From contig JAAXIL010000056.1 of assembly GCA_012270355.1 (NCBI GenBank), forward strand, positions 1 through 23,085: a DNA stretch of 23,085 nt, in the 5' to 3' direction. The notes under the pieces were generated by a model. That model had not been told where the DNA came from, made no database searches, and saw only the letters and a program-made list of their open reading frames with translations. Origin of the DNA: Psychrobacter sp. Lineage in GTDB: Bacteria; Pseudomonadota; Gammaproteobacteria; Pseudomonadales; Moraxellaceae. Below, in pieces: positions 3,425-12,712 of this stretch (position 1 is the stretch's first letter; each line of letters starts with the position of its first letter). A program made the translations under genes and the position numbers.

Positions 3425-3768
3425 TTAAACCAAGTGGAGTGCTGTTTCACTCTGATCAAGGCACGCATTACACCAGCAAGCAGTTCGCCCAGTCAATAGT
3501 AAAGTGTACACAAATGAAGCAAAGTATGAGCCGAAAAGGCAATTGCTGGGACAATGCCCCCACTGAACGCTTCTTTAGAAGCTTTAAGACAGAGTGGATG
3601 CCCAAAGGCGGTTACGAGAATATCACCGAGGCTAAACAAGATATCTGTGATTACATCTGGGGTTATTATCAGACTGTGAGACCGCACAGCTTCAATAATT
3701 ATTTAACGCCAGTAGAAAAAGAGAAACGATACTTCAATCAAAACCTCTTATCAGGTGTCCTAAATTAG
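3421..3768 (+). pseudogene. IS3-family transposase OrfB, C-terminal fragment
   Basis: The frame from 3421 reads [19 protein letters not shown], then MSRKGNCWDNAPTERFF, the hallmark rve/DDE core of IS3-family OrfB. It holds the second Asp (HSDQG) and the final Glu (PTERFF), and ends normally after RPHSFNNYLTPVEKEKR at TAG 3766-3768. The first catalytic Asp and the N-terminal helix-turn-helix region are missing. A GTG at 3439 could start a 109-aa product, but this would lack an intact active site, so the fragment is dead. Confidence 0.88.
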
Positions 3769-3973: not shown

Positions 3974-6900
3974 TCATATATTCTTACTATCAGCAGGGTA
4001 ATCACCCAAACCCACCAGACAAACCAACACCCCGCCCACAAACTTAAGTACCCCTGCCGATTTATAATAGCTTTCTCCCTTTTCTGGTTTTATCATTAAC
4101 ATTAATCTTACCTCAAAACCTTTAAAATTAGGTCTCATACCTGTCATGATTTTAGGGTCTAAACCATATTTTTTCTTCAAGTTCCGAACCGCTTGCTCAC
4201 TGTCAGAACGTATCTGCCAATGCTGAGCGTCGATAAGTTGACAAGCCAGATCCATAAATTCGGCTAAAAGCTTTTGCTGAAATTTTTTGATGCCAAAGTT
4301 TATATACGAGTTTGATGTAATGTGCTTCTGCTTATAAATCTCAACAAACTTTCTTAAATTATTGGGTTGTTTAATAGACAATTTATAAGCTCGATCTATA
4401 GCGATACTTGCAAGATCATTGGCTTTATTCCCTCTGATATGAGTAACCAGTTTTTGGTTATTATTTAACTGTCTTGCATTAGCAAAAATTTGCCTTGCCT
4501 CATTGCCGTAAATGCCATGTTTAAAGCCAATTTTCTCCACTTGCTTTTCTCTATTTTCAGGGCTGACTTCATCTAAATCGAATAAAAAGTTGATGACGTC
4601 ATTGTATTTTGCGTGTATAAAAATTGAATGCTCAACTGGACTGTCCTTTTGATGAGATTGCATTAAGGCGGGTGCACTGTTCGATTTGTCGTTATCAGCT
4701 GTAAACAGTAAATTATGATGGGCTTGCAGTTTTTGAGCGAGATACCCTCTGAGGATGTTTAAATTAACGGTTTTAGTCGTCTTATCGTAGGCGGTCTTAT
4801 CGAAGTAGTTTACCCGTTGATAATCGAGTCCTGTGATGTTTTGCCACGTGGTTAACGGCATACTGAGTTTGGTCTGGCTCAGTTGCTCTCCAGCAAGCAA
4901 ATGAGCGGTGTGAATATAATGCTCAAATGTCGTATCACACGTCAAATGTCCGACAAAGCTTGCCAACCCGAACCAAGCCCCTTGAGTTTGATGGCATCCT
5001 AACAAAGCCTGACAAATTGCTTCAACTTCTTCTGCTGTGTAATCCGTCATCGCATAAGTTAATGGCGACTTATTGACAACTAATGCCAATTGACTAATGG
5101 CAGTATGCCGAAAACTATGAAACGTATAATCGTGATTGTCCTCACCGAGCGTTAGATCAAGTAGTATTCGCAATAGATTGACAAACACATGACCCGGTAG
5201 TGGAGAATCCCCCATACCTTGTGAAAATAAATAATTTCGTCTTGCTCGTCGTTGCTGTGCGACTAACTTTTTGAACCTCTCAAGCTCATCAGTTTTGAAC
5301 AATGGGGTAATAGGAACTCGACGTCTGGCACTGCTACTTTTTAGGCGTCGATAGCGATTGGGAGTAAGTACAATGTTAATCGCATCACTGTTTTTACTGT
5401 CTTCAATATCTTTGACTTGTATACCTGCCAATTCATTTAATCTCATGCCTGTGCGATACGCTAAAGTGATAATGCTTAGACAAAGTTGTTTTTGTTCATT
5501 GCTTAGCGGTGCGTTGCTCAATCGAGCTTGCATCGCCCCATACACTTTAGGTGATATCATATTGGCTTTAACGATTTGTAAGCTGTCTCTACGACCGAAA
5601 CTTAATTCAGGGGCATCATAGTCCTCTTTATAACGTTTCTTTTGGAACTCATGAAATGCATACAGTCGACCTTTGACGAAGTTTTTATTGTGTAATGGAA
5701 AAGTTTTAGTATCATTGCTCACATTTTTTTCGTCTAACTTTGTTAAAGCATCAGTGTCTATATCAGCAGGCTCTGCATCATTGTCATCACTCTCATCTTG
5801 ATAGAGTAAACACCGTTTACGTCCATCGGCCCTTTTTCTTAGCAGGATTTGGTTATAAACTTCTATATAGTCGTGCGACTCCCATAGACTTAAATCTTCA
5901 TTCATTGTCAGCATGAGCCAATCTCGTCCAATTGTGCCAATATATTTACTGATGGACTGCTGAATAATTTTATGACGCTCTAACATGGAAACTGTCCATT
6001 CAATCAAACGTACCGCATTAGGTTGCGGATATAATTCCAATAACGCCTGCACGTCTTCTTTGGCTTTTAATTTTGACTGCTTTAGAGCATCTTGAATACT
6101 TTTAATAATGTTTTTGCTAAAAGCTGGGTAGTGTTCGGGGTCACGTGTTTGCTTTAAACGACTTTTAGAATGCCCAAATAGTAAGTCCCAACTTAATGCG
6201 GTATCAGAAGCCTCGTTTTTCACCATCTCTTTGTTATAGTGGATCAGTTTGTCAAAAGGTAGTGCCGTCGTTTTGATATCGCCTTGCATCACTAAACTGC
6301 CTGCCCCATCGATGGCAGACTCAGGCAAATTACGCCAATGAAAAACGGCATACTTAACGAGATGCGACAGATTAGGTTTGTCTGGATATCGCTGGTACAG
6401 TTTAAGATCATTACTAAGTTGATTGATGAGCATTTCAAACTGACTAATTTCGCTTCTCTTTAAGTCAATATCTTTTAGGGCATATAAAAACATCAGACTG
6501 ACAGGGTCTGGCACGTAATTGACATATCTTATCAAGTGGCTTTCACTCTGATGCGTACAACCATAGTGTTCATCATCGACCGCAAGTGGTATGAAGACCA
6601 ATGGTCTTCCCAATGTATTTCGTTTTTCATCCGTCTCGTTAAGGTTAATCTGATAAAGCGTTCGCTCACTAAAAAGCCAGTCATATAAAGCTTTTAATGC
6701 CTCAATATCACAGAGTCCGCCAATCATGATAGAACTGTATAATAGGTATTTCACCTTATCTTCAGCGGAAAACTTACGTTTGTTCTGCCAAATATCGAAC
6801 ATATCTTTATAACTTTCGCTGACTTTTGACCCTTCCACGAACCAGTCATAACCGATGCTTAGCTTGTCCCGCCCTTCGACAATAGGCACCACAGGTTCGT

Positions 6901-7159
6901 CGAGTTGCAACTCATTTAATTTATTAAAATCGCGTACCGCTTGCAAAAAACCTTGGCGGGCAATACGGTATTGACTGAAGGTTGTGAATTGCTTGGCTAA
7001 CTCATTATCAATGGTTTGATACAGCTCAGTTGTATCTGAGGATTCATCAAAATGATGGGCATTGAGCTTTTCGTAAGCAATGTCAAAGGCTCGCTTTTGG
7101 ATTTGATTCTTTTGATCTTTTTGCTTATCGGCACGGGCAAGGTGAGCATGGTCGGACAT
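3974..7159 (-). CDS. gmtY: large tyrosine recombinase of the trio (GmtY-like)
   Basis: A 1061-aa site-specific tyrosine recombinase, likely the catalytic integrase of the island. The catalytic domain lies mid-protein, about 510-760. Active-site residues can be placed: Arg573 in RTGMRLNELAG, a probable Lys607, His681 and Arg684 in HSFRHTAISQL, His738 in VGHLTCDTTF and nucleophile Tyr748 in FEHYIH. About 500 residues precede it and 300 follow, unlike the 300-400 aa of phage or Xer integrases; both extensions are unrecognised. The C-terminal part is basic (e.g. KKKYGLDPK). The ATG follows the previous gene's TAA directly, and that gene's end supplies a strong GGAGGT site 7 nt upstream, so coupled translation is expected. 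The recombinase call is firm; the GMT name rests on gene order and size. Confidence 0.85.
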   Translation of the reverse strand: MSDHAHLARADKQKDQKNQIQKRAFDIAYEKLNAHHFDESSDTTELYQTIDNELAKQFTTFSQYRIARQGFLQAVRDFNKLNELQLDEPVVPIVEGRDKLSIGYDWFVEGSKVSESYKDMFDIWQNKRKFSAEDKVKYLLYSSIMIGGLCDIEALKALYDWLFSERTLYQINLNETDEKRNTLGRPLVFIPLAVDDEHYGCTHQSESHLIRYVNYVPDPVSLMFLYALKDIDLKRSEISQFEMLINQLSNDLKLYQRYPDKPNLSHLVKYAVFHWRNLPESAIDGAGSLVMQGDIKTTALPFDKLIHYNKEMVKNEASDTALSWDLLFGHSKSRLKQTRDPEHYPAFSKNIIKSIQDALKQSKLKAKEDVQALLELYPQPNAVRLIEWTVSMLERHKIIQQSISKYIGTIGRDWLMLTMNEDLSLWESHDYIEVYNQILLRKRADGRKRCLLYQDESDDNDAEPADIDTDALTKLDEKNVSNDTKTFPLHNKNFVKGRLYAFHEFQKKRYKEDYDAPELSFGRRDSLQIVKANMISPKVYGAMQARLSNAPLSNEQKQLCLSIITLAYRTGMRLNELAGIQVKDIEDSKNSDAINIVLTPNRYRRLKSSSARRRVPITPLFKTDELERFKKLVAQQRRARRNYLFSQGMGDSPLPGHVFVNLLRILLDLTLGEDNHDYTFHSFRHTAISQLALVVNKSPLTYAMTDYTAEEVEAICQALLGCHQTQGAWFGLASFVGHLTCDTTFEHYIHTAHLLAGEQLSQTKLSMPLTTWQNITGLDYQRVNYFDKTAYDKTTKTVNLNILRGYLAQKLQAHHNLLFTADNDKSNSAPALMQSHQKDSPVEHSIFIHAKYNDVINFLFDLDEVSPENREKQVEKIGFKHGIYGNEARQIFANARQLNNNQKLVTHIRGNKANDLASIAIDRAYKLSIKQPNNLRKFVEIYKQKHITSNSYINFGIKKFQQKLLAEFMDLACQLIDAQHWQIRSDSEQAVRNLKKKYGLDPKIMTGMRPNFKGFEVRLMLMIKPEKGESYYKSAGVLKFVGGVLVCLVGLGDYPADSKNI

Positions 7160-9526
7160 TTAAGTGACCTCCACCTGTTTAAGCGTCAGTTCTTTTGCGA
7201 TGTCATCAATGTGAGTTTTAATAGATTTAAGGTCTGACATGCTGGAAGATGAGAAGGGATGCATCAGCTCCTGTTCGGGGTGCTCATGCCCAAAGATGGC
7301 ACAAATTAGGGTTTCATCTGCACGGTTAGTGAGTAAAGAGCGTAATTGGTGCCGAAGCCAATTATCCTGATGGCGTAAGGCTTTACCCAGTAAACTCTGT
7401 ACACGACTGGGCTTGTAAGCAATAAAGCCCAATGGATTGTAGTTAAAAAAAGTTAACAGCGGCTTTTTAGATTGCAAAATATCCTCTATTAAAAGCGGGT
7501 GCTCGGGATATAGCATGTTATGTTTACTGGCAAATCTTTGCAGATATGCCTTGTAATTTTGCACCGCCGTTGCCACAAAATCAGCTAAGGGAATCAAACG
7601 ACCTTGCCGACTATTGTGCTTATTTGCTTTATCCGATATCCATAACAGATGTTGTTTAAAGTTAAACTGGTTGAGAAAGCCAGGAGCATCATTGACAGGA
7701 CGAATGCCTGTAAGCAGTTGCAAAACGTGCCATAGCCATAACCCATAGGCATTAAATTGCTTAATACTTTGATTTTCATGGATGCTTAGGGAATGGTTTG
7801 TGGCATCATTATATTTTTCGACATGCGTAGCTAACTCTTGAAAAAACTTTTGGCAAACTTTTTCTTTCAATACCATGTCACTGCCAATAACAGGTTTATT
7901 GATGGCATGGGCATCATTGATTAACTCAGACTTAAACGCTAATTGTTTTTCTTGAGGTAAATGTGCGATGAGTCGAGATGTCGCATGAGCATATGTGGTA
8001 ATTAAAGACTCTGTTGCTATGCTTGTATAGTACAGCGGAGCAGAATGTTTAACGTCAACCCCTGTGATTAAATCCGCATGAAGTGGCTCGCCGACATAAT
8101 GGGTAATGATAACTGCCAACGCCGCTTCAATATGTTGACGTGAAAGCAGTGGCATTCCTAAGTCTTCCTTGATGTTCGCAATAGCGTCATCGATATCCTG
8201 CTTATTGACCTCAAAATTATAATGACATATCGTTTGCAAGGCACTTGGTAAGGGTAAATAAAATGTATTACCGAAACTTTGTTGAAGTTTTTTTAGTGCA
8301 CTACGATTGTTGGCAGTGACGTTAATTTCTGCCTTTATACCTATAATGGACATCACATCTGAACGCTTGCCATGGTGCGACAAAATATCTCGTTGTGACT
8401 GGGTTTGCTTAAGGTCATGTATGAGATCACTGATTTTTCTGCCCGATAATAGCGATAATAATATAACGGTTATCGCCCTTTTTTGCGGTAACGCCACGTC
8501 ATCCAAACGTAGCCATAGCGATGCAAAGACTTGTTGATAACTTGCCAGGTTAAGTACCCGAAGGTTACTCGGAAAAGCAAACTGATTCCGCCTGCTATGT
8601 CTCGCCTGATTTCTGATTTCCCATCGTTGAAGTTCTGCGGATTTGGCGGTTTTTTTACTGGGTCTAAACGCATTGTCAAGTAGCTTGAATGCGTCCTCAT
8701 CGCTTTGAGTTTCCGCTTGAGCAACATTACTGTCATCTTTTATTAAAGGTTGCCAAGCACGAACAGGGGCATTGTCATTATCTAAAGGATTATCCGAAAA
8801 ATTGTCTAAGTTAGGTAATAGATGAGTCTGATTTTGTGATTGTTTCGTTTTAGCACTTCTTCGCTGACCACCGCCTGCTTTACTAATAAAATCTAAATCT
8901 TTAATGATGACTTCATAAGCCAAGCGAATTTGACCAATTTTACTACCGAGCTTGTAGTCCTTACCTGTGGCTTCTTCATGTTTGATTTGAATTTCATAAT
9001 CTCTAAGCTTATCGAGAATATGTTCAAGCGTTGCTGTCGATGTGTGCCATTCAATTAAATTTGACAAAATGATGGATTGCACATTATCAGGTTTTAAACC
9101 CATTCGGACTCGCACGCCCAGAGTATCAATCTTTCTATAATGCTCATCATTCCGAGTGGTCAGCAAAAACATGGTTTGCAAATACCCACTCATAAATCGC
9201 CATTCAGGACTGTCTAGCGATTTATCTCGATAAACTTGTGTGAACAATGCCAGCATATAGGGCACTGCCCAAGTTTTACTCATCCCCTCCGACCTTGTGT
9301 GTTCTATGATCTCTATACATTGTGAAACCCTAAGCTTGTCATGCGGACTATCATGATGTGAGATATTACTTAAATTATCGTCATAGGGTTCAACCAAATC
9401 AGAAGCATAGTCTTGGTGTTTGTGAATCAGTGCAATGACAACCCCTTGTACTTGGTCTGCATGAGGTGAGTCTGGCGGAACCAGTTTATCTAGTATCCAT
9501 TTAGCCGTAATATCTGAGGTCGCCAT
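7160..9526 (-). CDS. gmtZ: second trio protein: recombinase-fold protein lacking the catalytic tyrosine (GmtZ-like)
   Basis: 788 aa. Its last 200 residues keep the order of a tyrosine-recombinase catalytic core: Arg609 in LLTGIRPVND, Lys633/Lys636 before RLIPL, His726 and Arg729 in RHQLRSLL, and His747 in IFGHEHPEQE. Where the nucleophilic Tyr should stand, about 10 residues on, the sequence reads MHPFSSSSMSD, with Phe758 and serines. No Tyr follows to the C-terminus at 788. It may therefore be a structural or regulatory partner rather than an active recombinase. The N-terminal 590 residues are unrecognised. The gene starts 16 bp after the small gene and ends immediately before the 1061-aa recombinase ATG. 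This fold assignment comes from motif reading by eye. No frameshift is seen. Confidence 0.7.
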   Translation of the reverse strand: MATSDITAKWILDKLVPPDSPHADQVQGVVIALIHKHQDYASDLVEPYDDNLSNISHHDSPHDKLRVSQCIEIIEHTRSEGMSKTWAVPYMLALFTQVYRDKSLDSPEWRFMSGYLQTMFLLTTRNDEHYRKIDTLGVRVRMGLKPDNVQSIILSNLIEWHTSTATLEHILDKLRDYEIQIKHEEATGKDYKLGSKIGQIRLAYEVIIKDLDFISKAGGGQRRSAKTKQSQNQTHLLPNLDNFSDNPLDNDNAPVRAWQPLIKDDSNVAQAETQSDEDAFKLLDNAFRPSKKTAKSAELQRWEIRNQARHSRRNQFAFPSNLRVLNLASYQQVFASLWLRLDDVALPQKRAITVILLSLLSGRKISDLIHDLKQTQSQRDILSHHGKRSDVMSIIGIKAEINVTANNRSALKKLQQSFGNTFYLPLPSALQTICHYNFEVNKQDIDDAIANIKEDLGMPLLSRQHIEAALAVIITHYVGEPLHADLITGVDVKHSAPLYYTSIATESLITTYAHATSRLIAHLPQEKQLAFKSELINDAHAINKPVIGSDMVLKEKVCQKFFQELATHVEKYNDATNHSLSIHENQSIKQFNAYGLWLWHVLQLLTGIRPVNDAPGFLNQFNFKQHLLWISDKANKHNSRQGRLIPLADFVATAVQNYKAYLQRFASKHNMLYPEHPLLIEDILQSKKPLLTFFNYNPLGFIAYKPSRVQSLLGKALRHQDNWLRHQLRSLLTNRADETLICAIFGHEHPEQELMHPFSSSSMSDLKSIKTHIDDIAKELTLKQVEVT

Positions 9527-9542
9527 AGCAATCGCTCGTTTG

Positions 9543-10106
9543 TTATTCGCTTGATTCGTTTGCCCAGCTCATATCGTTAGGTAAGCCGAGTGACTCTTGT
9601 TGGGCAACAATCTGTCGCTGTTGATACTCAAGGTGGTCAAGTTCGATGCCCACAAATTCCGTGTAATCTTTTCTTGTTAACGATGCTGTTTGCATAAGCT
9701 CTAACAAAATGGTGGTTGGACAATCACTTTTTAGAGTATGCCAAAGCAGTGCGTGATTAACGTCACGTATAAATGCCAATTGTAAAACTTCTGCCCATGC
9801 CATTTTTTTAATATGCCAGCTTTTATGTTCACTGATAATAAAAGGTTGGCGGTCGTTTGCCTCAAACTGCATGATATTCTGCATGCGTTCAAACGCATAG
9901 TAGTACTGAAAACCCGTCTTAGTTTCAATCAAGCGAATTGGTGGTTTATGGTAATCATCTACTCCAGACAAATTGATATGTTTGTGACCAACGCGACAAT
10001 TTAACCAAACTTGATAAACTGGTCTGGCAACCTCGTGAACACAAAAGTTATATTTGTTAGGAATTAAAAAACGATGGCGTGATTTTACGTTATTCGTTTT
10101 CGGCAT
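9543..10106 (-). CDS. gmtX: small first protein of the trio (GmtX-like), function unknown
   Basis: 187 aa, first gene of the three-gene minus-strand operon. I recognise no domain. The N-terminus is basic (KTNNVKSRHRFLIPNK) and a middle stretch IRLIETKTGFQYYYAFERM may be beta-rich. The C-terminus is helical and Gln/Glu-rich (LEYQQRQIVAQQESLGL). There is no signal peptide or membrane segment, so it should be cytoplasmic. GAGG stands 6 nt before the ATG. It lies 119 bp downstream (in its own direction) of the tandem ACGGACGATT repeats, so it could bind them as a regulator or accessory factor, but this is inference. Size and position fit the third GMT component. A GInt-type GinD protein is an alternative. 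Confidence 0.6.
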   Translation of the reverse strand: MPKTNNVKSRHRFLIPNKYNFCVHEVARPVYQVWLNCRVGHKHINLSGVDDYHKPPIRLIETKTGFQYYYAFERMQNIMQFEANDRQPFIISEHKSWHIKKMAWAEVLQLAFIRDVNHALLWHTLKSDCPTTILLELMQTASLTRKDYTEFVGIELDHLEYQQRQIVAQQESLGLPNDMSWANESSE

Positions 10107-10224
10107 GACATACCTCAGCTTGTTTCAACTATATTTATAAATCATCCATTCAAGCCAAATAAACCAGCAAATAACGTCTTAGGGTGTTGATGTTCACCTT
10201 CATCTCATTTTTACTCACTTATAA

Positions 10225-10260
10225 TCGTCCGTAATCGTCCGTAATCGTCCGTAAACGTCC
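10225..10260. repeat. 10-bp-period tandem repeat GTAATCGTCC (about 3.6 copies)
   Basis: On the plus strand AATCGTCCGT recurs at 10-bp steps from about 10223, the last unit being changed to AAACGTCC. A 10-bp period puts each unit on the same face of the helix, as in iterons or arrays of protein-binding sites. A related ATCGTCCAT lies at 10276-10284. The array lies upstream of the recombinase trio, between it and the Fic gene, so it may be a recombinase or directionality-factor arm site, or an operator for the operon. Confidence 0.8.
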
Positions 10261-10304
10261 GCAAAGCACTATTAAATCGTCCATCTTCGTTCTGGCGGAC
10301 GTCC
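10255..10304. repeat. inverted repeat ACGTCCGC / GCGGACGT beside the tandem array
   Basis: ACGTCCGC at 10255-10262 and GCGGACGT at 10295-10302 form an 8-bp inverted pair with a 32-bp spacer. The second arm is part of the palindrome GGACGTCC (10297-10304). The left arm overlaps the last tandem unit, so one protein could read both. Two inverted arms around a short spacer resemble a tyrosine-recombinase core site, but crossover has not been shown. Confidence 0.5.
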
Positions 10305-10360
10305 TTATACCAAGTGTGGTGTATCACTGGTCGTCGAAGGTGTCTCTGAGTAAACTAAAT

Positions 10361-10477
10361 CTAAAAATCAGAAGCCAACTGTTGCCAATGCTGGTGTAGT
10401 AACTGTCGTTCAGATTTAAGTAGTGGCAACACAGTTAAGGCGTCTTGCCAAATTGTGCTATCTATAGCTTTTATGAC
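10361..10477 (-). pseudogene. short open remnant between fic and the trio
   Basis: A minus-strand frame begins next to the Fic stop and runs 38 codons to TAG at 10361-10363, with protein-like content (IDSTIWQDALTVLPLLKSER, then QLLHQHWQQLASDF). It has no ATG, and a stop closes it upstream inside the end of fic. It may be the 3' end of a former cargo gene fused to fic by deletion, or chance. I do not recognise it. Confidence 0.25.
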
Positions 10478-12054
10478 TCAAACACTTGCTTCAATGCTTT
10501 AATAATCCTATCGTAAACGTTTTTATCCGAGAGCTTTGGTATATCTTTCATTAGCTTATTGGATTTTTGACCTTGATGGTTTTGAAAGCTACGAATAATA
10601 CGGTCAGCATAGTCATTGGGCATATCTATGATATCTTTAATTGCCAGACGGGCTTGATCATGACGCAATAAATAAACGGATTCATTCCGCATATCATGGG
10701 TGATAACGTGGGCGATGAGTTTGGCAAGATAAATCACGTGCCCAGTCAAATCCAGATAACGCCAAACAGGATTGGCAATATCTAATCCATTAAAAGTTAG
10801 GTTAGATACAATGCCATCAGCATAGGTTTGTTGTTCTAAGCTAAAGTTATAATGTCCATGCAAAGCTTGCATCAAAGGCTTTGAAATAACATCTAGAACC
10901 TGACTGTATTCTTTTAAACTCCGAGGCGTACCAACGATGGATTTAGAAAGAGGCAAAATCAGCGGGTCTTCAGTCACGCCATCTCGCCGTAGCACATCAT
11001 TGAATAAAAAACGATGCAATCTACCGTTACCATCAGCAAGTGGATGAATATAAACGAAAGCAAACGCCACTGATGCACTTCGCATGACGGCAGACTGTCC
11101 TTGTGTCGCATTCATAAAGGTGTTTAAGCCTTTAAGCTTGTCAGGTACCTGCTCATAAGGCGGGGCGATGTAATGCACAATTTCATTAAAGCTCATCCGC
11201 CTTTCACCAATAAAAACGGGGGACTGACGCACTCCGAAATGATTAAGAACGGTATCGCCCATCATTACCCGTTGATATCTTGCCAAAGTTTGCTGTGAGA
11301 AGGGTTGGTCGCTTTTACCAACTTCTCTTGCTATAAAATCAGCAAACCTTTCAATACGTTTTATCTGCCCACCTTCCCCTTCAATAGTAAAACTGGCTTT
11401 ACTCTCACCCAATGTCAACCAAACCGAGGCTCGCATCAGCAAATCTTCACCGAATGCATTATTCAAATCATACAGCATGGTAGTAACATCTAACTTGGAT
11501 GCTGTTAAAAAAGGTTCTGTTTTTACCAGCATGGGTGCAAACGCTTGAGTTCCAGCGATATTGTTATTAATCCGCCAACGCCTTTCTTTCTTGATAAACG
11601 CCTTAGAGGCGGTTACCAACTTGTCGTCGTCAATGGCATCGACATAATTGCCTCCTAAAGCTTGGGGAGGGTTAAGTTTCTTATCCGACAAAAACTCATA
11701 TAAAAAAGCACAACGTCTGGCGTATTGCCCCGTCGGTTCTTCATCAACCCACGCTTGAATCTCCTGACCATCTAAAGCAGTAAAAAGGCGGGATAAAAAC
11801 TCGAAATGTACCACTTCATGGCGTAGGTGAAATTGCAGATGAGCAGTCATTGTCGCACTAGGTCGCATGATGGACTGATAAACCTGATGAACAAATCCAT
11901 TATGACGAAAATCCTGACGACGCGAACCAATACTACTGGAATGATAAATCGGTAGCACAGGTTCAATTCCTGTATGCTGAATGATCCACATGATGCCAAT
12001 CGGCTCTCCACGATTATGAAAATAGTCGTCTGCGTAATAGATGTCTGTCAGCAT
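10471..12054 (-). CDS. Fic-domain protein with built-in inhibitory motif (probable AMPylase)
   Basis: 527 aa. The Fic core reads IHPLADGNGRLHRF, with catalytic His337 and the D-G-N-G-R anion-hole residues 341-345, matching HxFx(D/E)GNGRxxR except Leu for the first Phe. Such enzymes usually transfer AMP from ATP to a target hydroxyl. About 110 residues upstream, SFTIEG (221-226) fits the inhibitory helix (S/T)xxxE(G/N), with Glu225 as the expected blocker, so this is a class II, self-inhibited Fic protein. The 200-residue N-terminus and the C-terminal region of about 130 residues are unassigned; the latter may contain a winged helix. No separate antitoxin gene is present. It is the only cargo-like gene of the trio island, so a role in phage defence or host control is plausible but unproven. 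The ATG has a weak AGGT site 9 nt upstream. Confidence 0.88.
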   Translation of the reverse strand: MLTDIYYADDYFHNRGEPIGIMWIIQHTGIEPVLPIYHSSSIGSRRQDFRHNGFVHQVYQSIMRPSATMTAHLQFHLRHEVVHFEFLSRLFTALDGQEIQAWVDEEPTGQYARRCAFLYEFLSDKKLNPPQALGGNYVDAIDDDKLVTASKAFIKKERRWRINNNIAGTQAFAPMLVKTEPFLTASKLDVTTMLYDLNNAFGEDLLMRASVWLTLGESKASFTIEGEGGQIKRIERFADFIAREVGKSDQPFSQQTLARYQRVMMGDTVLNHFGVRQSPVFIGERRMSFNEIVHYIAPPYEQVPDKLKGLNTFMNATQGQSAVMRSASVAFAFVYIHPLADGNGRLHRFLFNDVLRRDGVTEDPLILPLSKSIVGTPRSLKEYSQVLDVISKPLMQALHGHYNFSLEQQTYADGIVSNLTFNGLDIANPVWRYLDLTGHVIYLAKLIAHVITHDMRNESVYLLRHDQARLAIKDIIDMPNDYADRIIRSFQNHQGQKSNKLMKDIPKLSDKNVYDRIIKALKQVFES

Positions 12055-12233
12055 AATGCTTATACCTAAAAAGCAATAAAATGGATTAGAAAATTGACTA
12101 TGGCATAAAAATGATTATGGTTGCAATAAACCGATTATATTTGAGCTAATTTGCAAATTTTTAATTATAAGAAACATCAAATTTTAAGAGGTGTACCTTT
12201 TATACATGTCATAAATACAGACAAATAATTTAC

Positions 12234-12325
12234 TTACCTCCCCTCGCAATAGTGAAGCAAAACGATACTAATTGCTTAACGCAAGTCTCGAAACAGAGCA
12301 ATTCTGACTCAGTAGGGGAGGATAA
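12234..12325. other. 92-bp imperfect hairpin region, possible structured RNA or recombination site
   Basis: Outer arms TTACCTCCCCT (12234-12244) and AGGGGAGGATAA (12314-12325) pair over 11 bp with one bulged A. An inner pair AATTGCT / AGCAATT (about 12270-12276 and 12296-12302) lies within. The arms are GC-rich in AT-rich surroundings, which makes chance less likely. There is no T-run, so it is not a terminator. It could be a small RNA, an end of the mobile island, or a protein-binding site. I recognise no known RNA family. Confidence 0.4.
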
Positions 12326-12440
12326 TTTAAGTGTACGATTAAAAATTGTTATGTGTCAAATAATGTAAAATTACAGTGACTAAAATATTAAAATAATTTT
12401 ATTTTTCTTAGAAATTAATCATTTATTCAAAACATAAAAA

Positions 12441-12475
12441 AGGCTATAATCCTTTTAAATAAAGGGTTATAGCCT
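12441..12475 (-). terminator. rho-independent terminator for minus-strand transcription
   Basis: 15-bp stem AGGCTATAATCCTTT / AAAGGGTTATAGCCT with one G-T wobble and a 5-nt loop. On the minus strand the stem is followed by TTTTTT; the plus strand lacks a T-run. It would end transcripts from the TauE/SafE gene, about 240 bp away, or from a gene now lost between. Confidence 0.8.
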
Positions 12476-12503
12476 AATAAATATTTAAGTATTTTTGTCT
12501 TAT

Positions 12504-12522
12504 GACCTTGCCAAGGTCGGGG
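12504..12522 (+). other. tRNA-Gly(GCC) anticodon-arm match, possible attachment-site remnant
   Basis: GACCTTGCCAAGGTCGGGG is identical over 19 nt to the anticodon arm and start of the variable loop of bacterial tRNA-Gly(GCC), as remembered from E. coli. Neither flank continues as tRNA: no acceptor, D or T arm and no CCA. Tyrosine recombinases often use this part of tRNA genes as att core, so an attP-like or old att site is plausible. Chance is possible because 15 of the bases are a simple palindrome. Confidence 0.4.
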
Positions 12523-12712
12523 GTTCATAATTTTTAGACCTTTAGATGAGAGGTTGGACTACTCTAGCCCCAAAAGTTTCATACAGTGTTAATTTATTTC
12601 GTCGGTGATTCTATATGAAATAGCCATCTAACCTTAAACCTTTAGGTCAAGCCAATGCTCAAGAGCTATTAGCCTGTCACATCAACACCATTAATCCCGC
12701 ACACAACAACTG

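Follow-up and report, generated by a model that had tools for sequence, protein, structure and literature searches.

A conserved recombinase trio beside a tRNA-Gly(GCC)-like end: a probable genomic island of Psychrobacter distinct from Gamma-Mobile-Trio modules

Introduction

Gamma-Mobile-Trio (GMT) islands carry both defensive and offensive tools, according to PMC12715929, while PMC10214605 describes strand-biased circularizing elements (SE) and GInt elements as combining active recombinases with a recombinase-fold protein devoid of the full active site (Tfp and GinC, respectively) and with a small helper. A module of similar outline is found in a stretch of 23,085 nucleotides from Psychrobacter sp. 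(GCA_012270355.1, contig JAAXIL010000056.1, positions 1 to 23,085 of the forward strand), hereafter the window, whose host genome is incomplete (1.95 Mb, 83% complete). It is formed by three genes, here named P3, P2 and P1, which, together with a defined DNA end beside them, are probably the recombination machinery and one terminus of a site-specific genomic island, belonging to a family distinct from GMT. The original prediction had recognized a mobile-type recombinase trio in a Moraxellaceae genome, which is borne out (the genome is Psychrobacter-like), and had taken it for a minimal GMT island with a Fic gene as cargo. Defence genes cluster in islands whose movers have often not been identified; the trio has no name in the databases searched, yet it is common in the genus.

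The recombinase trio

The genes for P3 (187 amino acids, 9543..10106), P2 (788 amino acids, 7160..9526) and P1 (1061 amino acids, 3974..7159) lie on the minus strand, separated by 16 bases (P3/P2) and 0 bases (P2/P1), with reading frames exactly as first proposed; they and the adjacent Fic gene, on the same strand, are all open. P1 is a large tyrosine recombinase that matches Pfam Phage_integrase (8.1e-10), and only generic integrase matches were obtained for it in Pfam, NCBIfam, PADLOC and PHROGs. Its residues R573, K607, H681, R684, H738 and Y748 are identical in all the aligned family members (22 rows, broken copies being left out), so that the R-K-HxxR-H-Y set of tyrosine recombinases is present in 22/22 rows; this is the one complete active site that the original prediction had attributed to the trio.

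P2 shows a tyrosine-recombinase fold in its C-terminal part and retains R609, K633, H726, R729, G746 and H747, but the position of the nucleophile is occupied by F758, followed by the conserved S759 and S760. The R-K-HxxR-GH pattern without the nucleophile tyrosine is found in 21 of the 22 rows. The P2 homolog of plasmid p3ABAYE (L107) is the only one with a tyrosine at that place, and in it R729 is replaced by M. Foldseek with P2 alone gave no match with E < 0.001, yet 18 of its 19 top rows are tyrosine recombinases. The first recombinase-like part of the protein (about 319-525) contains H494 and an invariant Y500, while the second one bears the R-K-HxxR-H residues; P2 may be a two-domain protein, whose two recombinase-like parts could form one shared site. 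No family model for P2 or P3 was found in the four libraries used for P1, apart from one non-significant PHROGs match for P3. The C-terminal stretch of P3 reads like a helix-turn-helix; the structure model of this protein is poor (predicted local distance difference test, pLDDT, 40.6).

P1 would be the enzyme that cuts and joins DNA, P2 would bind the same kind of site without cutting it and build the synapse, and P3 would act as a DNA-binding helper. A partner that keeps the pocket and is short of the tyrosine offers a direct test case for the role of a non-cutting recombinase subunit.

Distribution of the trio

Of the 96 genomes searched, 44 have a P1 match at E <= 0.001, and 43 of these belong to the genus (the window genome included and distant clades counted); by a hand count matches of at least 40% identity, some of them broken, occur in 21 of 59 other genus genomes searched. 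The complete P3-P2-P1 set, in the same order and on one strand, was observed in 17 of the 20 loci fetched around the closest match class (Psychrobacter), the three incomplete ones being cut by a contig end (L036), reduced to a partial P1 (L040) or broken (L041); this recurrence indicates that the arrangement is more than chance. Among the complete trios examined together with their DNA, the closest is that of Psychrobacter sp. I-STPA6b (L098), with 65% identity in each protein. Distant trios, at about 22-37% identity, are found in Psychrobacter and on Acinetobacter plasmids, and the same size order holds in the three Acinetobacter plasmids examined. Among plasmid records, 257 of the 261 that P1 matches and 250 of the 253 that P2 matches are from Acinetobacter, all below 60% identity. 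Profiles of P1 and P2 from which the Acinetobacter rows were held out detect both the Acinetobacter proteins and those of a second clade of trios (3e-42 to 8e-87). When 274 genomes across the class were searched with the P2 profile at E <= 1e-10, the window genome alone matched, so that, with this cut-off and this sample of genomes, the family has a narrow distribution. P3, P2 and P1 are conserved together and form a family of their own; no publication on such a trio in Psychrobacter or Acinetobacter was recognizable by title or by the start of the abstract.

Gene neighborhoods vary among the copies. On an Acinetobacter johnsonii plasmid (L106) the trio is flanked by a type I restriction system on one side and a replication gene on the other, and in three Psychrobacter loci (L037, L038, L039) repressor-like and phage-replication-like genes, identified by eye, lie directly upstream of P3, with a near-zero gap in L037 and L038.

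The element end and its relation to tRNA-Gly(GCC)

The window contains one element end, at position 12522, which copies the anticodon arm of tRNA-Gly(GCC). The end motif, GACCTTGCCAAGGTCGGGG, occupies 12504..12522 on the plus strand; no other match was found in the genome when up to 2 mismatches were allowed, and beyond the motif lies host DNA with a TauE gene. The limit at 12054 that had been assigned to the element is therefore too short. The terminal region between this end and the Fic gene (12096..12525) is partly alike the corresponding end in I-STPA6b: the two sequences align at the same end, and the stretches 12096-12169 and 12335-12525 are 73% alike. A sharp left end is also common to five relatives, picked for their similar upstream DNA, that display four different flanks (L029 and L035 have the same one). 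At L022 and L024 the end adjoins half a tRNA-Gly(GCC) gene, namely its 3' half, and an intact copy is missing from both places.

The exact genus form of the motif, ATTGCCAAGGTTGGGG, was found 15 times, in 13 of the 100 genus genomes, and at 13 of these sites the P1 and P2 genes of one or another clade lie next to it; by a rough estimate, in which the trio density is assumed, the probability of such an association by chance is 1.6e-26. Among the 13 trio-side sites, a clear first-clade P3 is found in L022, L024, L156 and L159 and a matched one in L154, the others being too distant. The I-STPA6b site was listed under genome G302 and is read here as G279; contig number and place are equal. Past the bases GGGGT, the flank is a tRNA 3' half at 8 sites (including L162, with one extra base), a tRNA 3' end out of register at 2 and unrelated DNA at 5. 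As for 5' halves, 9 of 10 genomes contain two each and G302 contains none, and all 18 belong to intact genes; the 3' halves are thus in excess, which is the pattern of classical tRNA islands. Genome G018 resembles the empty site of the second-clade trio in G046: past its intact tRNA gene comes the same 3' flank (90% over 1.5 kb) as lies after the displaced half in G046. In the second-clade trios of L152, L153, L157, L163 and L164 the tRNA-like end is found about 400 bases past P1 and not before P3.

The combination of a fixed end with varied flanks, some of them out-of-register tRNA ends, suggests loose targeting or deletions beside the end. In the mechanism that we propose, the palindromic anticodon arm AACCTT-GCC-AAGGTT would be the core site, the island would enter tRNA-Gly(GCC) or secondary sites bringing defence-type cargo with it (here Fic), and the joined island ends would carry the motif TTGCCAAGG at the joint. 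With a defined end motif, some of these islands can be located and their ends put to the test.

It is also conceivable that the trio is part of a plasmid or prophage maintenance system and that the tRNA-like end is a by-product. The distant trios near replication genes on Acinetobacter plasmids and the phage-replication-like genes noted by eye upstream in three Psychrobacter loci would fit such a role, but this is improbable, as there are copies whose end is sharp while their flanks differ, and as the end is tied to split tRNA-Gly genes.

Several observations weigh against a site-specific island with a tRNA-derived end. Within 3 mismatches, the end motif precedes P3 in 7 of the 20 close loci only (L022, L024, L028, L029, L033, L034, L035); of the other 13, one is interrupted there by the contig end, another begins within the trio and the remaining ones are without it. 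Two of the 15 exact sites have no trio nearby, one of them at a contig edge. In the window itself the flank past the motif is not tRNA, the motif differs from the genus form at 2 of 16 positions, and at least two such matches arise in 3 of 100 shuffles of the window, which makes the motif alone weak without the alignment to I-STPA6b. A tRNA-Gly copy with this arm was not found elsewhere in this incomplete genome, nor was a second end in the window or in the seven longer contigs scanned. Finally, the structure model of P3 is poor and the P3 profile misses the distant small trio proteins, so that their link to P3 consists of place and size alone.

As to the missing end, one idea is that an intact tRNA-Gly gene some distance away marks it. 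The six genomes with both copies on one contig (G035, G286, G311, G291, G297, G057) all fit this arrangement, the copies having the same orientation and lying 54-84 kb apart on the trio side. On the other hand, the copy of G035 resembles its relatives on both sides, and a tRNA is lacking at the trio end of G286 and G311. A search for the empty site of G286 placed its left junction within the initial codons of a gene read as norB, the site being empty in G004 and G024, and the right half was not found in the 97 kb searched.

Fic and other cargo

The gene between the element end and the trio (10471..12054, minus strand) encodes a protein of 527 amino acids that matches Pfam Fic above the cut-off (2.1e-11), as expected from the first reading of the locus. 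Fic/Doc proteins are characterized by a motif of the type HPFx[DE]GNGRxxR; here it is HPLADGNGRLHR, at residue 337, with L in place of F, and an inhibitory-type motif, SFTIEG, is found at residue 221. The protein is probably an AMP-transferase. It also matches the PADLOC model PDC-S24 over residues 16-526 (3.4e-160), where PDC presumably stands for candidate defence gene. In I-STPA6b the same slot is occupied by a SLFN_AlbA_2 gene, and because this slot differs in the closest relative the proposal of Fic as cargo holds.

This Fic is absent from the 20 other loci and from I-STPA6b, and it occurs elsewhere in 12 other genus genomes and in one genome of another family. Whereas in the window the PDC-S24 Fic gene adjoins the trio, in the 12 genus genomes, mostly draft contigs, it is not on the contig of a first-clade trio. 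In five genomes (L074, L075, L077, L078, L080) the same Fic family is found on similar contigs of 32-36 kb, perhaps one plasmid.

Near other trios, mostly beyond P1, past which the island limit is not fixed, there are a Thoeris ThsB TIR protein (6e-49), Nmad2, dCTP-deaminase-like proteins, bpMoxR and a protein kinase, whose best PADLOC models are mad6 and PD-T4-6. Ten neighbor proteins picked by eye gave 4 PADLOC matches, 2 of them weak or partial, and 6 gave none.

Joined together, the sequence data would fit a new mobile-island family of Psychrobacter with distant relatives on Acinetobacter plasmids, equipped with an active recombinase of about 1000 residues and a partner short of the cutting tyrosine, using the tRNA-Gly(GCC) anticodon arm as core and carrying Fic, Thoeris ThsB and kinases as travelling defence-type genes; this composite picture we hold tentatively, as a prospect that falls a little short of even.

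Host site and the disturbed side

The block is set off by its composition, as initially noted: GC content in 1-kb windows is 0.39-0.43 inside, with two AT-rich edges at 0.36-0.38, and rises to 0.43-0.44 on the left and 0.44-0.53 on the right. A 10-base tandem repeat in 4 copies (10222..10261) lies between Fic and P3, and its unit also occurs upstream of P3 in I-STPA6b; tandem repeats at this place match that strain partly as repeats, and were not counted as flank homology. No tRNA genes or Rfam families were detected in the window.

The block lies, as described earlier, between insertion sequence (IS) debris and host genes. The right flank consists of the TauE and biotin-ligase genes, a pair that is also found together in relatives. 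Twelve relatives were fetched at this place and none of them has the trio beside TauE (0/12), although one, L091, covers only 0.6 kb on that side. In ten relatives an SMC-type gene, identified by eye, follows TauE within a few genes, with varied small insertions between them. The small genes or insertions of this interval (L082-L093) differ among Psychrobacter genomes, and it looks like an insertion hotspot. Comparison with relatives, originally suggested as a means to find the empty site and the exact ends, has shown the absence of the trio beside TauE and fixed one end at 12522; the other end was not found.

On the P1 side, the C-terminal piece of an IS3-family transposase (3439..3768, plus strand) abuts P1 past its 3' end and outside the trio, marking the disturbed side, and a piece of IS256 family is found at 3-539. 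Between the two pieces lies a gene for a TonB-dependent siderophore-type receptor (763-2949), which is either a host gene or island cargo. DNA similarity to I-STPA6b ends at position 4007. In the window the left junction is rearranged, or the cargo continues there. Since IS debris disturbs this side, the window copy may no longer be able to move. The idea of a minimal island is not proven, since no far end came to light and the last gene is directly adjoined by IS debris.

A reading compatible with the island interpretation is that the locus is a dead remnant: the end of an old element would have become fixed next to TauE and been cut by IS elements, and Fic would by now be a resident gene. 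The IS3 and IS256 pieces and the TonB receptor in place of the expected far side, the loss of similarity at 4007 and the failure to find a second end in the window and the seven longer contigs make this a plausible account, though one toward which we lean less than halfway; against it, the four genes are open and their catalytic residues are kept, save the P2 tyrosine, which suggests recent activity without proving it.

Comparison with known systems

Among the described systems, RIT and Tn554 resemble the trio in having three proteins with tyrosine recombinases. According to PMC10214605, RIT elements have three recombinases of 315-410 amino acids, all with the tyrosine, versus proteins of 187, 788 and 1061 amino acids in the window, where P2 is devoid of it; in Tn554 (TnpA, TnpB, TnpC) both TnpA and TnpB have the RHRY set, whereas here P1 alone does. 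Both are set apart by these descriptions. GInt elements (ginABCD) share with the trio a multi-integrase operon and variable cargo (PMC5385486). They differ in having four genes, three of them for integrases, and in GinC, which has lost the first arginine that P2 keeps.

SE modules (intA-tfp-intB-srap) are similar in that a large recombinase occurs together with a small helper and with a recombinase-fold protein whose active site is incomplete, and differ in having four genes. SE are further characterized by a footprint of 6 bases and by the lack of an empty donor site. The trio could then be an SE or GInt-like element minus one gene, a derivation for which the composition that the two systems share, as given in PMC10214605, is the argument. 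However, hmmsearch with the P1, P2 and P3 profiles gave no match to the four genes near blaGMA-1 on pAQU1, regarded as the SE from their location and arrangement; inspection of 20 lists of open reading frames by eye revealed no third recombinase-like gene that recurs next to the trio; and Tfp is described in that paper as lacking the RHRY set, while P2 is short of the tyrosine alone. Such an origin is unlikely.

The GMT module is the system to which the trio had been assigned, as GmtX, GmtZ and GmtY with Fic as cargo. The two are equal in outline, each being a recombination module of three genes, two for recombinase-type proteins and one for a protein of about 200 amino acids, and defence-type genes lie near related trio copies, as could be expected for a diverged GMT island. 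GMT features were taken from annotated records, i.e. 7 modules on plasmids, to which the one genome with GmtY above the cut-off, among 185 class genomes, had led. In all of them the order is gmtY, a gene of the VPA1269 or "integrase" family (gmtZ) and gmtX, although one VPA1269 gene is split and in two modules the middle gene is named integrase family protein. The proteins have 442-466, 865-1273 and 196-226 amino acids; thus, in GMT a recombinase of 442-466 residues comes first, while the window trio runs from small to medium to large, with the recombinase of 1061 residues last. The model recomb_GmtY (NF040693.1, 441 positions, cut-off 340 bits) is present in the NCBIfam library, yet the trio gave no GMT match; NF040694, at first taken for a further GMT model, is actually ribK.

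The comparison with GmtX, GmtY and GmtZ profiles that accompanied the original assignment was also carried out, with profiles of GmtZ and GmtX built from 6 and 7 annotated modules. The hhalign probabilities are 0.4% for P1-GmtZ, 0.3% for P1-GmtY, 0.5% for P2-GmtZ, 0.3% for P2-GmtY and 0.2% for P3-GmtX, values to be read with the shallowness of the profiles in mind, as P1 and P2 are themselves only weakly linked (4.4%). A search with hmmsearch against three of the seven GMT modules gave no match for the trio, and neither a GMT nor an SE protein reached an E value under 0.5 with the P1 and P2 profiles. Membership of the trio in GMT is rejected on this lack of GmtY, GmtZ and GmtX homology and on the differing order and sizes, and even a diverged GMT island is a very remote explanation. 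We read the trio island as analogous to GMT and not as one of its members.

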